From Microbacterium sp. MYb62 (GTDB lineage Bacteria > Actinomycetota > Actinomycetes > Actinomycetales > Microbacteriaceae): a stretch of DNA of 64,000 nt. The notes under the pieces are model-generated. The model worked only from the letters and a program-made list of their open reading frames with translations, made no database searches and had not been told where the DNA came from. Below are positions 14,225 through 19,770 of this stretch, piece after piece (within the stretch, counting starts at the first letter, position 1; each line of letters starts with the position of its first letter). A program made the position numbers and the translations under genes. The stretch lies in the NCBI RefSeq assembly GCF_002979475.1, contig NZ_PCOY01000002.1:1-64000 (forward strand), read 5' to 3'.

Positions 14225-14250
14225 GGAATTCTTGGATGCAGACATGTATC
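14225..14250 (+). promoter_or_regulatory. Possible ECF-type autoregulatory promoter of the sigma/CHAT operon
   Basis: GGAATT (14225-14230) is followed after 15 bp by GTATC (14246-14250), resembling the GGAA..(15-16)..GT pattern used by many ECF sigma factors. It lies 50-70 bp upstream of the sigma gene start. The evidence is only this spacing and the two boxes. Confidence 0.3.
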
Positions 14251-14297
14251 AGAAAGCTCTTGCCGTGCTCCTGGTAGGTGTGATCACAATGGGCTTC

Positions 14298-14924
14298 ATG
14301 ATCGACGGTGCACCCGGCGCCGCTCTCGATCCTGCATCGGACGACGGTCGTGCACGCTGGGAGCGTGCCGCGGACCTGTTCGATGCATGGCGCGAGAGCG
14401 ACAGCCGCGCGATGGACGAGCTCGTACGACTGATGACACCCGTGCTCTGGCATGTCGTGCGCGCCTACGGCCTGGAGCGCACCCTCGCCGAAGACGTCGT
14501 GCAGACCACCTGGCTGCAGCTCGTACGCGGCCATGGCTCGATCAGCGATCCGAAGGCCGTGTCGGCCTGGCTCACGACCACCGCACGCCGGGAGGCCTGG
14601 AAGGTCGCGAAGGCGCACGGAAAGGTCGACACGACCGCTGCCGACGACCTCGACACGCTGCTCCCCGAGCAGGCATCCGCCGAGGAGCACGCGGCTCTCG
14701 GTGAGGAGAACCGTCGCCTCTGGACGGCCGTGCGCCGCCTCAACGAGCGCTGCCAGAAGCTCCTCCGGGTGATCGCCTTCGAAGACCGTCCCGACTATGC
14801 GCGCATCGCCGTCGATCTCGCGATGCCGATCGGGAGCATCGGCCCGACACGGAACCGGTGCCTCGCCAAACTTCGCGCACTCCTGGAAGCGCCACCGACC
14901 GCTACGGCAGGGGGGCCAGCATGA
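14298..14924 (+). CDS. ECF-like RNA polymerase sigma factor
   Basis: This 208 aa protein has sigma region 2 at about residues 38-105 (LAEDVVQTTWLQLVRGHGSI, the core-binding segment) and region 4 at about 141-197 (LWTAVRRLNERCQKLLRVIA, then the HTH). There is no region 3, as in ECF sigma factors. ATG candidates also exist at 14289 and 14244; the longer N-termini are hydrophobic and atypical, so 14298 is preferred, with limited confidence. Its stop overlaps the next gene by 4 bp. It heads an operon with a beta-sandwich protein, a subtilase and a TPR-CHAT protein, suggesting that one of these controls its activity. No zinc-finger anti-sigma factor is encoded nearby. Confidence 0.85.
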   Translation: MIDGAPGAALDPASDDGRARWERAADLFDAWRESDSRAMDELVRLMTPVLWHVVRAYGLERTLAEDVVQTTWLQLVRGHGSISDPKAVSAWLTTTARREAWKVAKAHGKVDTTAADDLDTLLPEQASAEEHAALGEENRRLWTAVRRLNERCQKLLRVIAFEDRPDYARIAVDLAMPIGSIGPTRNRCLAKLRALLEAPPTATAGGPA

Positions 14925-15376
14925 CCGAGCAAGAGGATGCCCAGATGTTCGCCCGGCTCCGCACGCTCTGGAGCGAGGTCGATCCGATGCCCGCCGGGCT
15001 GATCGATCGGATGGTCGCTGCGGTCGCCGCTGACGGCCTGAACCGCGAATACGCGCTGCTCACCCTGGTCGAAGGTCAGCTCGGTGCGGTGCGGGGTGAG
15101 GCGGATGCCCTCACCCTGCAGTTCAGCGACGGCTCCACCAGCATCCTGCTGCACGTGACGAGCACGGCTTCCGGCCGCCGTCGCGTCGACGGCTGGGTCG
15201 ACACCGCTGCCGCCGAGATCGTCCTGACGCAGGGCGAGAAGACCAGGTCGACCTCGCCGGAGGCGACCGGACGCTTCGTGTTCGACGAGGTACCGCCCGG
15301 TCTCACACGCGTGCGCCTGACGACCGTGATCGGGGACGAGACGCGCACGCTCTCGACCCCGCAGTTCGAGCTGTGA
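14921..15376 (+). CDS. Small cytoplasmic protein with carboxypeptidase-regulatory-like beta-sandwich; possible sigma partner
   Basis: This 151 aa protein has an N-terminal acidic helical segment of about 55 residues (FARLRTLWSEVDPMPAGLID) and a C-terminal beta-rich domain (about 60-151). The latter ends in FDEVPPGLTRVRL, the hallmark of carboxypeptidase-regulatory-like/prealbumin-type folds. It has no signal peptide, membrane segment or cysteine. The ATG overlaps the sigma-factor stop (ATGA), so the two proteins are likely made in fixed ratio. That position is usual for an anti-sigma factor. A role as anti-sigma factor or as protease substrate is inference; I do not recognise the family by name. 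Confidence 0.7.
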   Translation: MTEQEDAQMFARLRTLWSEVDPMPAGLIDRMVAAVAADGLNREYALLTLVEGQLGAVRGEADALTLQFSDGSTSILLHVTSTASGRRRVDGWVDTAAAEIVLTQGEKTRSTSPEATGRFVFDEVPPGLTRVRLTTVIGDETRTLSTPQFEL

Positions 15377-15433
15377 CAGCGGGCGCCGCCCGTCGATGAG
15401 GACGCGGGGCGACCCGCACGGAGAGGATGACGC

Positions 15434-17002
15434 ATGGATCAGCCCAAGGGATGGACCTGGCAGGACCGCGCGGAGGGATCGATCCGCCGAGGAACGGCGC
15501 TCGATCCGAGCACGGAGCCCGTGGACGGCATCCGCGCGTTTCCCACGGCGTATCTGCCGGAGCGGCTGCTGATCACGCGAGCACTCGGCGACGAGGAGGC
15601 CTACGACCGCGAGGTGCGGACGCTCCGCGATGCGGCCGACACCTTCGGCTGGCAGCTCGAGGTCGAGGACGACACCCGCGCCGCGGCCGACGGCGAGCTG
15701 GTCCCGGGAGTTCCGGGATTCCTGCGAGCTCGGCTGCGGACTCCCGACGAACCGGTCCGAGGGGAATCGCCGGTCGCACCGGATGCCTGGCGGGTGCTCC
15801 AGCGGGCACGGCGCATGTCGCGCTCGACCATGCCGCGGACGAGCCTCGACCACGTGCTGTCGATCGATCCGGTCGGGCTCAACCCGTTCAGCCACACGAA
15901 CCCGTTCAGTCACACGAACCCGTTCAGCCACACCAACCCGGTGAGCGGCGAGCGGGGCGGCAGCGGCAGCGAGGACTACCTCGCGCCCGGGCGCGGGGCC
16001 CGGCAGCCCGTGGCCTGGCTCGGACCCGCACCGTCGCGAGGCCCGGCACCACGTCGAGGCCGACGTCCGGTCATCGCCGTGCTCGACACCGGATGCGGCG
16101 AGCACCCGTGGCTGCCGGCAGACATCGTGACACGACAGGTCTCCCTCGACGGCGTGCCGGTCGGACTGGTCGATGATGCCGATCCCGAGCGCTTCCCCGA
16201 CCTGTACGGCCCCCTCGACGGCGGGATCGACTCCGTCGCCGGTCACGGGACGTTCATCGCCGGGATCGTCCGCCAATCGGCTCCGGACGCAGACATCCTC
16301 TCGATCCGAATGGCAGGCGGGCTCGGGGTGGTCGACGAGAGCACGTTCCTGACGACGCTCGCGCAGGTGGTCGAACTGCTCCGACGTCATCGCGAAGACC
16401 CGAAGACCGGACATCCGATCGACGTGTTGAACCTCTCGCTCGGCTACTACCACGAGACCCCGCAAGACGGCCTCTTCAGCGCCACGCTGAATCAGCTCCT
16501 CACGAAGGCACGCGACCTCGGCTGTGTCGTCGTGTGCTCCGCGGGAAACGACACGATCGATCGCCCCGCGTTCCCCGCTTCGCTCTGGGACTGGCCGGGG
16601 GCGGACAACGGCATACCGCACGACGACCATGCCCCTCTCGTGTCAGTGGGGGCGCTCAATCCGTCGGCTCGATCCGTCGCACTGTTCTCGAACGTCGGGC
16701 CGTGGGTGCGCGCCTACGCACCGGGCGCCGCCATCGTCAGCACCACTCCGGCCTTTGTCGGGGGCGATCAGGCGACGACGCGAGCCGACTTCGAGAACCT
16801 CCGCCGAGAAACACTGGATCCCGACGACTACCGTGGCGGATTCTCCGTGTGGAGCGGAACCTCGTTCGCGGCACCATACGTCGCCGGCCGGATTGCGGCA
16901 GAGCTCGGCAGCGTCCCGCGCCAAGGAGTCAGCCCCAGCGTCGCGGCCGCCGCCGTCGCTGCCGTGCTGAAGACGCTCCCTGCGCCGAGAGACGACGACT
17001 GA
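15434..17002 (+). CDS. S8-family serine peptidase (cytoplasmic subtilase) with NPFSHT repeat linker
   Basis: This 522 aa protein has the complete subtilisin triad: Asp218 in VIAVLDTG, His271 in GHGTFIAG, Ser477 in GTSFAAP, with oxyanion Asn372 in CSAGND. There is no signal peptide or membrane anchor, so it should act inside the cell. An N-terminal region of about 145 residues precedes the protease. They are joined by three exact NPFSHT hexapeptides (150-167) plus a fourth NP. The linker could be a self-cleavage or partner recognition site. It is the third gene of the sigma/CHAT operon, 57 bp after the beta-sandwich gene. The ATG is supported by GGAGAGGATG just upstream. Confidence 0.88.
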   Translation: MDQPKGWTWQDRAEGSIRRGTALDPSTEPVDGIRAFPTAYLPERLLITRALGDEEAYDREVRTLRDAADTFGWQLEVEDDTRAAADGELVPGVPGFLRARLRTPDEPVRGESPVAPDAWRVLQRARRMSRSTMPRTSLDHVLSIDPVGLNPFSHTNPFSHTNPFSHTNPVSGERGGSGSEDYLAPGRGARQPVAWLGPAPSRGPAPRRGRRPVIAVLDTGCGEHPWLPADIVTRQVSLDGVPVGLVDDADPERFPDLYGPLDGGIDSVAGHGTFIAGIVRQSAPDADILSIRMAGGLGVVDESTFLTTLAQVVELLRRHREDPKTGHPIDVLNLSLGYYHETPQDGLFSATLNQLLTKARDLGCVVVCSAGNDTIDRPAFPASLWDWPGADNGIPHDDHAPLVSVGALNPSARSVALFSNVGPWVRAYAPGAAIVSTTPAFVGGDQATTRADFENLRRETLDPDDYRGGFSVWSGTSFAAPYVAGRIAAELGSVPRQGVSPSVAAAAVAAVLKTLPAPRDDD

Positions 17003-17058
17003 CCGACGCTCGCGTCTGAGAGCTTTCGCCGACACAGCGGACAGGGCATCCTGGGGGG

Positions 17059-19506
17059 ATGACCCTGTCCGCTGGCGACCTCCACAGGCGTGGGATCGAG
17101 GCGGCGAACTCTCGCCGATTCACCCAGGCGCGACGTGCCCTGGCGTCCGCATCATCCCGCACAGACGATCCCGACCTGAAAGCGCGGATCGAAGGGACCA
17201 TGGCCTACGTCCTCGATCAGACCGGCCAGCATGCCGCGGCGGAGGCGGCAACGCGCGCCCTGCTCGATCGCGAAGGTCTGAGTGCGACCACGATCGCGTT
17301 GTTGAGCGGGCAGCTCGGAGTCCTGCTCATGCATGCAGGGCAACTCGACGACGCGGACCGGCTGCTCAGCCGGGCGATCAGCACCCTGCCGACGAAGACC
17401 ATCGAGCTCGCCAACCTGCTCATGAGCCGATCGATGGTGTTGATGCAGCAGCATGAGCTGGGCAGGTGCGTGGACGACCTGAACACCGCGATCACCGTGT
17501 TCGAGGATCACGACGCCGTCGAATCACTCGCCCGAGCCCGCCACAATCTCGGCTACGCGGCGTTGCTCGGCGGAGACCTCGTCGCAGCTCTCCGCCTCAT
17601 GAGCGCGTCACGCCCCGTCTTCGCCGAGACGAGCGAACTGGCGACTGCCGTGAGCGATCTGGATCGTGCCGAGGTACTGCGTGACGCTGGACTGACGACA
17701 GAGGCCGAGGGACTGCTCAGTCAGGTCGCCGTCCGATTCGGTGCGCAGCGCATGCGCCAGGCCCGCGGCGAAGCCGAGTATCACCTCGCACGATCACTGC
17801 TGCGGCACGACCCCGCCGCGGCCGAGCGTGTCGCTGCCGCAACCGTTCGACGCTTCGCTGCGTTGCAGAGCGAAGGGTGGGCGGCCCGCGCGGTGTCGGT
17901 GCATCTGGAGGCTCGGACCCGCGCCAGACCGGACTCGCCGCCCACCGCAACGGAATTCGCTGAAGCCCGTGCCGCGCTGTCACGCCACGGATTCCGCACG
18001 GAAGCAACCGCTCTGCACCTGGTGGCGACACTCGCGGGGCACGAGCGGATGCCACGGATCGCCGCGTCGTCACCGACGCCTTTGCGCCTTCGAGCGCAGG
18101 AGGTGCGTGCGGTGCGTGCGACGCAGCGCGGCCACAGCGCCGAAGCGATGCGTGCGGCGGCGACCGGCCTCGCGTTGCTCCACGGATGGCAACAGTCGTT
18201 CGGTGCGCTCGATCTCCAGGCGTCGTTCGCCATGCACGGGAACGACCTGATCTTGGCCGGACTGACGGCGGCGGCACGCACGAAGACCCCGGCCACGCTT
18301 TTCGAATGGTCCGAGCGGGCACGGCACCTGAGCCAGCAGACGGTTCCGGTGCGACCGCCTCGCGATCCCGAGCTCGCCGACGATCTGGCCGAGTTGCGAA
18401 TGCTGCGCGCCGATCTGGCGGGGTCTGATTGGACGGCCGATGAACGGGTCAGCGCACTGCGCGACCGGGTACGCGACCGTCAGTGGTCGGCGACCGGTAC
18501 CGGCCGATCTCGCGAACGCGTGGGACTCGATGAGGCGGCGGCGGCGCTGGATGACGGCACTGCGATGCTGTCGTACGTCTACACGGGCGCGGAGCTTCTG
18601 TGCGTGGCCACGACCGCCGATGACGCCCGCGTCGTCGCCTTGCCGTGGTCTCGTATCCGCACGGCCCTCGACGGTCTCCGGGCCGACCTCGACGTCGCTG
18701 CCGCCATGACCGCCGGCCCCCTGGCACACGTGGTCGCACGAGGGCTCGACGACCGGCTTCGTGCTCTCGACGGCGACCTGATCCGTCCGGTGCTGGCCGC
18801 GATCCCCTCGATGGAGCGGTTCGTGATCACGTTGCCCGGCGTGCTCGCCGGTATCCCGTGGGCGATGCTGCCCGGCCTGTCAGGCACCCCATTCACCCTG
18901 GCGACCTCGATGTCCCGCTGGGCGGATACTGCCCGCCGCCCGATGACCAGCGAGCCGAAAGTCGGCTTCGCCACCGGACCGCGTGTACCCAGGGCAAGCG
19001 ACGAAGTGCAGCGTGGAGCGGCTTCCTGGCGCACGTCGGACCCAGGCCCGACCCCGTCGATCCTCGAAGGGGCAGATGCGACGGTCGCCGCAGTCACCGA
19101 GCTCGCCGCGGCCACCGATGTGCTGCACATCGCCGCGCACGGCAGGCACGCGGTGGACAACCCGCTGTTCTCCGGATTCGAGCTCGCCGACGGCATCCTC
19201 TTCGGCTACGACGTCGACCTGATCCCGCGCGTGCCGGCGACCGTGATCCTCTCTGCCTGCGAGCTCGGGCGATCTTCGGTGCGCTGGGGCGAGGAGGCGT
19301 TGGGGATGACGCGGGTGTGGTTGCACGCCGGCGCGGACTGCGTGATCGCGGCCCCTGTCGCCGTCCCCGACGAGGTGGCCGGCGAGCTGTTGAGCGCCGT
19401 GCACACCGGCTTGTCCGAGGGGGCCGCTCCGGCTGTCGCGCTCGCGAAGGCTGCCGTCGACACCGGCTTGAGCGCGCCGTTCCAATGTCACGGCGACGGG
19501 TTCTGA
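17059..19506 (+). CDS. TPR-CHAT protein (caspase-like protease)
   Basis: This 815 aa protein has TPR-like helical hairpins over about residues 5-420. The C-terminal CHAT domain (about 490-815) carries the caspase-type dyad His694 in LHIAAHGRH and Cys734 in LSACELGRS. CHAT proteases cleave specific partner proteins when their TPR region is engaged; characterised examples include Csx29 in type III-E CRISPR systems and CHAT proteases that activate bacterial gasdermins. Here the neighbours are a sigma factor, a small protein and a subtilase, so one of these is a likely substrate (inference). No gasdermin-like or CRISPR gene is adjacent. Start ATG after GGGGGG; no signal peptide. Confidence 0.88.
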   Translation: MTLSAGDLHRRGIEAANSRRFTQARRALASASSRTDDPDLKARIEGTMAYVLDQTGQHAAAEAATRALLDREGLSATTIALLSGQLGVLLMHAGQLDDADRLLSRAISTLPTKTIELANLLMSRSMVLMQQHELGRCVDDLNTAITVFEDHDAVESLARARHNLGYAALLGGDLVAALRLMSASRPVFAETSELATAVSDLDRAEVLRDAGLTTEAEGLLSQVAVRFGAQRMRQARGEAEYHLARSLLRHDPAAAERVAAATVRRFAALQSEGWAARAVSVHLEARTRARPDSPPTATEFAEARAALSRHGFRTEATALHLVATLAGHERMPRIAASSPTPLRLRAQEVRAVRATQRGHSAEAMRAAATGLALLHGWQQSFGALDLQASFAMHGNDLILAGLTAAARTKTPATLFEWSERARHLSQQTVPVRPPRDPELADDLAELRMLRADLAGSDWTADERVSALRDRVRDRQWSATGTGRSRERVGLDEAAAALDDGTAMLSYVYTGAELLCVATTADDARVVALPWSRIRTALDGLRADLDVAAAMTAGPLAHVVARGLDDRLRALDGDLIRPVLAAIPSMERFVITLPGVLAGIPWAMLPGLSGTPFTLATSMSRWADTARRPMTSEPKVGFATGPRVPRASDEVQRGAASWRTSDPGPTPSILEGADATVAAVTELAAATDVLHIAAHGRHAVDNPLFSGFELADGILFGYDVDLIPRVPATVILSACELGRSSVRWGEEALGMTRVWLHAGADCVIAAPVAVPDEVAGELLSAVHTGLSEGAAPAVALAKAAVDTGLSAPFQCHGDGF

Positions 19507-19672
19507 ACTTTTTCTCCATTCGGTGTATCAGAACGGAGGCTGCACGCTCCTGTTCTTCGGAAGGTGCCATGCGAAGGGCCTCGAAGGGAGAGGCGCGAGG
19601 GAGGCGCAGTCGGATCTGGGGATATCGCGCGCGCTGGGGAGCGTGAGCACGACACGGACACCATCTGCTCGG

Positions 19673-19704
19673 GAGTGTCGCGGCGGTACGCCGCCGCGAC
19701 ACTC
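19673..19704. terminator. 14 bp perfect hairpin, probable bidirectional terminator
   Basis: GAGTGTCGCGGCGG pairs perfectly with CCGCCGCGACACTC around TACG. It sits between the convergent CHAT gene and DeoR gene. No T tract is present on either side. The rest of the 19507-19770 gap shows no gene. Confidence 0.7.
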
Positions 19705-19770
19705 TCAGAGGGCCTCGACGATCTGGGGACGTCGGGGCCCTTGGTGTGTCGCGTCTTTCCGCTGCTGCCC

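Follow-up and report, generated by a model that had tools for sequence, protein, structure and literature searches.

A four-gene locus with two proteases

The window analysed here is a stretch of 64,000 nt from contig NZ_PCOY01000002.1 of Microbacterium sp. MYb62 (GCF_002979475.1), and all coordinates are positions in this window. The locus at 14298..19506 contains four real and intact open reading frames on the forward strand, encoding an ECF sigma factor, a 151 aa partner protein, an S8 subtilase and a TPR-CHAT protease. Their positions match those reported by a first-pass annotation made from the sequence. The sigma gene (14298..14924) starts at 14298 or at an in-frame ATG at 14289 and its stop codon ends at 14924; it was assigned by its reading frame and by family matches to Sigma70_r2 (36.7 bits, cut-off 24) and sigma70-ECF (64.2, cut-off 42.9). 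The gene of the 151 aa protein (14921..15376) overlaps the sigma stop codon as ATGA. Its product gave a single sub-threshold match (CarboxypepD_reg, 18.7 with a cut-off of 32.3), and a match of this type appeared at E 0.01 in 12 of 49 relatives.

The subtilase gene (15434..17002) was identified by a Peptidase_S8 match of 84.7 bits (cut-off 21.8), and no signal peptide was visible in its product. The last gene (17059..19506) encodes the TPR-CHAT protease (CHAT, 85.0 bits with a cut-off of 24), in which CHAT and TPR were the only Pfam families at E 1. None of the 114 aligned systems departs from the subtilase residues D218, H271, N372 and S477 or from the CHAT residues H694 and C734, which confirms that the locus combines two proteases of unrelated classes with intact catalytic residues. 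The genome of this strain holds one match for the subtilase and one for the CHAT domain.

Gene order is conserved without a consistent defence neighbourhood

The genes stand in the order sigma-small-subtilase-CHAT in 115 of 147 loci. The first-pass annotation had proposed conservation of this linkage as a check, and the gene set is thus more than a chance assembly. The other loci had a different order, duplications or only part of the set; in four of them this may merely reflect how far the open frames extend. Of 143 sigma genes, 140 had the small gene directly 3' of them. The subtilase was present in 203 of 366 Microbacterium genomes and, with a Nocardioides relative as query, in 24 of 394 genomes of the class; the small protein was found in 20 of 396 genomes of the phylum. 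Named loci came from Nocardioides, Cellulomonas, Aeromicrobium, Miniimonas and Geodermatophilaceae, among others. In seven distant genomes the sigma-small pair or the small gene stood apart from the subtilase. Three of them had a subtilase match less than 3 kb from a CHAT domain elsewhere in the genome, and in the other four no subtilase beside CHAT was found with that query.

Several loci depart from the simple arrangement. L095 and L096 each carry one sigma gene along with a second subtilase-CHAT pair and two or three small genes in all, which makes them a natural test of pairing specificity. An extra small gene lies 3' of CHAT in L128 and L153. About 4 kb separates subtilase and CHAT in L113 (L113:9300-13300), where the reading frames have no Pfam family.

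The neighbourhood was searched with PADLOC at 1e-10, using 97 flanking proteins (of 128 listed) from 24 loci, with up to three ORFs per side. The families matched were C3a212 (3 members), mad3 (2), mad8 (1) and mad2 (1). The C3a212 matches are probably explained by three SNase proteins; among the mad3 and mad8 matches is a UvrA-like ABC protein of L083, and the second mad3 match (L091:12992-14257) adjoins a PadR gene. The window subtilase itself gave weak S8-type matches to IetS and subtilase defence models. No defence neighbourhood with consistent neighbours was found among these 97 flanking proteins, so the suspected enrichment near defence genes was not supported. CHAT gave one partial match (32%) each in 72,556 plasmid and 50,697 phage records.

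The subtilase linker carries a tandem peptide array

The subtilase model matched solved pro-subtilisins over residues 42-520. Residues 39-143 (15548..15862, forward strand) are predicted to form an I9-like prodomain with a beta-alpha-beta-beta-alpha-beta fold, and the predicted structure fits an S8 zymogen whose I9-type prodomain is docked on the protease. Between this prodomain and the catalytic domain lies a 48-residue linker that is predicted to be disordered (residues 147-194, pLDDT <50). Repeat finding identified a tandem array in it, NPFSHT x3 plus NP (15881..15940, forward strand), which is the sole occurrence of NPFxHT in this genome. The first-pass annotation did not mention this repeat, which provides the strongest evidence of the present analysis.

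Across systems the arrays comprise 2 to 9 full copies of units of 5-8 residues, and the unit letters differ between species. In 115 distinct arrays, 1.8% of codons differed non-synonymously between adjacent copies, and synonymous differences had reached 91% of saturation. Judged by these codon differences, the copies are held alike by selection. The automatic finder reported no array in 14 of 144 subtilase frames, although L072, L095, L097 and L099, which it missed, do carry arrays. The copies are few and spaced apart in L191, L114 and L093, the reading frame of the L147 subtilase is broken, and inspection of the L102 and L108 subtilases revealed no array. Arrays were also looked for in the subtilases adjoining CHAT in three distant genomes, and none was found.

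Array residue 3 covaries with residue 199 of CHAT

Covariation between the proteins was analysed in the 114 of 147 loci with a single copy of all four genes, a single array and a CHAT score >600, and removal of near-identical systems left 99. In a first Mantel-type scan, residue 199 of the CHAT protein, a TPR residue (Ser in the window; 17653..17655, forward strand), scored 0.434, which was inside its own null; the next column scored 0.264, and this gap led to a separate test. Gly199 was found in 23 of the 24 systems with Tyr at unit position 3, versus 2 of the 67 with Phe. The partners of Phe were Ser (31), Cys (26), Ala (6), Gly (2), Thr (1) and Asn (1). Three systems broke the rule, namely L172 (Tyr with Ser) and L055 and L174 (Phe with Gly).

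Shared descent hardly explains this association. On a tree built without CHAT and the array, both traits changed 16 times, and independent pairs agreed in direction 11 times, were opposed 0 times and showed no difference twice (sign test, p 0.001). Trees from other parts gave 6:0, 7:0 and 9:0. Among the 4,971 column-residue traits that the four proteins yielded, residue 199 ranked first (phi 0.919, next 0.567), and none of 400 simulated traits reached this value (largest 0.642). The pair was also the strongest among 2,111 often-changing traits, where the next pair scored 0.78 between proteins and 0.81 within a protein.

A later-fetched set of 24 loci, 16 of them with array and residue 199 readable, provided further units; five of these 16 (L214, L218, L220, L221 and L222) were already in the set. 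The previously unseen units NPYHSG and HPYDSS occurred with Gly199, NPFHAS and APFTRG (three loci) with Cys199, and PFGSGV with Val199. NPLTRG was paired with Val199, and NPHGRT again with Asn199. The comparison rests on these new units rather than on the number of loci, L216, L219 and L223 being perhaps not independent. L075 and L161 have two tandem subtilases whose Phe units differ (PFTRTN and PFGKTN), alongside a single CHAT protein with Cys at 199.

Since unit residue 3 and residue 199 covary and the new units obey the rule, the TPR of CHAT most likely reads the subtilase linker. We put the probability that it recognises the array at about 0.85, on the strength of these sequence patterns. 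The first-pass annotation had proposed to model CHAT together with the linker of the subtilase, and the covariation supports a connection of the two.

Residue 199 lies three positions before D202, one of five CHAT residues (Q85, R124, N163, D202 and E240) that are spaced by 38-39 and nearly invariant (112-114 of 114). Such conservation is as expected for groove residues of a TPR that hold a peptide backbone, by likeness to RapF in the available part of PMC3601957. A sub-threshold Pfam match places residue 199 at TPR position 6, so its groove-facing orientation rests on a weak register. A pocket that is small where the unit has Tyr and filled where it has Phe fits the expectation for residues in direct contact.

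The contact evidence concerns a single unit position, because the other positions were not coupled beyond chance. Pairing of Arg/Lys at the penultimate position with CHAT119 and subtilase 184 did not exceed simulated traits (34/200 reached the top value), nor did that of Thr at the last position with CHAT16/13 (53/200). Gly at the fourth position with subtilase 310 was at the edge of the null (2/200). A mapped path of the peptide along CHAT was dropped, as the pairings of the penultimate and last positions, orderly as they looked, fell within the simulated null. An acidic residue stood at subtilase position 184 (window 15983-15985) in 57 of the 71 systems with a penultimate Arg/Lys and in 0 of 28 others, a pattern likewise within the simulated null.

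The small protein has an invariant arginine in a predicted hinge

The AlphaFold2 model of the 151 aa protein (pLDDT 89) consists of two N-terminal helices, a poorly ordered hinge (residues 54-59, pLDDT <50) and an Ig-like sandwich. The alignment of small proteins retained the 145 of 148 matches that were longer than 90 residues. Arg58 (15092..15094, forward strand) was present in 145 of 145, and the next residue was always G, S, A, T or N. This invariant residue in an otherwise unordered hinge suggests a candidate protease site, as far as conservation and the predicted model go. Relatives of CHAT such as separase and metacaspases commonly have Arg as their P1 residue, and CHAT may cut the small protein at Arg58. 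The role of Arg58 could alternatively be binding rather than cleavage.

Searches by Pfam, PDB sequence and fold found no anti-sigma match for the small protein, its two N-terminal helices being the only resemblance. We consider it a candidate anti-sigma protein that would restrain the sigma factor.

Promoter-like sites flank the operon

A promoter-like site, TGTATCA-N15-GCTC, precedes the sigma gene (14245..14270, forward strand), and GTATCA was conserved in 88 of 98 regions 5' of sigma. The full pattern, which turns up by chance elsewhere too, occurs at two sites in the window versus 0.05 expected from shuffles. The second site (19524..19549, forward strand) begins 18 bp past the CHAT stop codon, and a promoter-like site 3' of CHAT was found in 70 of 131 loci. 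It is followed by a G-rich, apparently non-coding stretch whose position is kept in many Microbacterium loci. Its CTGGGG motifs (106 versus 16 in shuffles, 72 sequences) and closing hairpin mark a candidate structured RNA (19550..19715, forward strand), for which no Rfam family reached the gathering score in 8 loci. In the Nocardioides locus L091 (L091:11938-12357), the site after CHAT is followed by a reading frame without Pfam family in place of the G-rich stretch. From these sites, it is likely that the sigma factor autoregulates the operon, with the candidate RNA as a further output.

A possible protease relay and its alternatives

We propose that the caspase-like CHAT protease uses its TPR superhelix to dock on the linker repeats of the subtilase, which may shelter or present the array. 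Engagement of the array would switch CHAT on, either allosterically, in the manner of TPR-peptide regulators, or because it gathers CHAT molecules together. Docking would make the two proteases one relay, in which CHAT cuts the small partner at Arg58 and the freed sigma factor transcribes its own operon and the RNA 3' of CHAT. The complete chain, from docking through CHAT and cleavage at Arg58 to sigma release, is tentative, with odds somewhat short of even. The cascade of sigma release suggested in the first-pass annotation remains plausible.

The order of the proteases may also be reversed, so that CHAT docks on the array, cleaves the linker and frees the subtilase from its prodomain, and the subtilase, as effector, then removes the small protein or other proteins. 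The array does lie between prodomain and protease, and 71 of 99 systems have Arg or Lys as the penultimate residue of the unit. Arg and Lys are common P1 residues of CHAT relatives. However, 28 of 99 systems, the window's included, have neither residue at this position, and no CHAT-domain column was coupled to it beyond the null. We regard this order as unlikely.

The subtilase might instead excise its own linker units, yielding free peptides of 5-8 residues as ligands of the CHAT TPR, by analogy with Phr peptides and Rap proteins. Identical copies of this length with species-specific letters would suit such messengers, and the binding of Phr pentapeptides on the concave TPR face of Rap proteins is a precedent in the available text of PMC3601957. 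Against this, a cleavage site is not evident in the array, and in L191, L114 and L093 the copies are few and lie apart. The chance that this is the main route appears small. An equally small chance is given to degradation of the sigma factor itself, with the small protein as an adaptor or substrate handler and no anti-sigma involved. This was stated for ECF54 from gene context in the sections available of PMC8999054, and it agrees with the missing anti-sigma match; the location of Arg58 in a predicted unstructured hinge and the sigma-small adjacency fit a partner that is cut. That the array is a neutral spacer and its covariation an accident of descent is hardly credible, as only the variable copy number speaks for it and the rarity of non-synonymous differences, the 16 parallel changes, the simulated traits and the conforming new units all speak against it.

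On a wider reading, the subtilase linker would be an intracellular peptide code, in which identical, species-specific units are locked to a matching TPR pocket and, as tethered or excised ligand, activate CHAT, and thereby sigma; ligand and receptor would be encoded in one operon and couple two unrelated protease clans to transcription. We hold this wider reading to be possible, a little less probable than its opposite. The repeat code suggests a testable physical contact with natural swaps at one residue on each side (Phe-Ser/Cys, Tyr-Gly and His-Asn). It points to a way of addressing a TPR-CHAT protease with a peptide rather than an RNA, and provides a peptide and receptor whose specificity can change; in the sigma partner, Arg58 stands out as one candidate cleavage site.

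Comparison with known systems

The subtilase model shares its prodomain and catalytic fold with the pro-subtilisins 3whi and 3afg, and differs from them by the 48-residue predicted-disordered linker with a homogenised repeat in between. As in RapF-PhrF of the RNPP family, a TPR superhelix would read a short peptide, and conserved polar residues lie on helix A (PMC3601957, available part). In contrast to that family, the output here is a CHAT protease and the peptide is an array within a cytoplasmic protease; no RNPP-type HTH or response-regulator-binding domain was found in the TPR-CHAT protein by Pfam at E 1.

The type III-E CASP/Craspase system likewise has an ECF sigma factor, a partner protein and a TPR-CHAT protease. 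The protease of that system cleaves the sigma inhibitor in a flexible loop (PMC10028731); the counterpart here is a predicted hinge. The type III-E parallel drawn in the first-pass annotation thus holds as a likeness in components; it does not extend to the neighbourhood, as neither Cas7-11 nor another Cas protein was matched among the 97 flanking proteins of 24 loci (PADLOC, 1e-10). A subtilase with a repeat array stands here in place of the RNA-guided subunit of that system.

The nearest described relative is ECF54. Its context in the available sections of the review PMC8999054, which draws on Casas-Pastor 2021 and Huang 2015 and has a Geodermatophilus model member, comprises carboxypeptidase, subtilase and CHAT proteins, and control by proteolysis without an anti-sigma factor was proposed there. 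The same neighbour set was found here: an ECF sigma gene lies beside a subtilase, CHAT and a carboxypeptidase-like protein (sub-threshold in the window), and the Geodermatophilaceae locus L088 has all four genes. Gene linkage is therefore not a discovery of this work, since that review already names it. The available sections name no repeat code, CHAT-subtilase contact or Arg58 hinge, and in the open-licence literature we found no paper on the repeat array or such a contact. New here are the linker repeat array of the subtilase and its coupling to CHAT.
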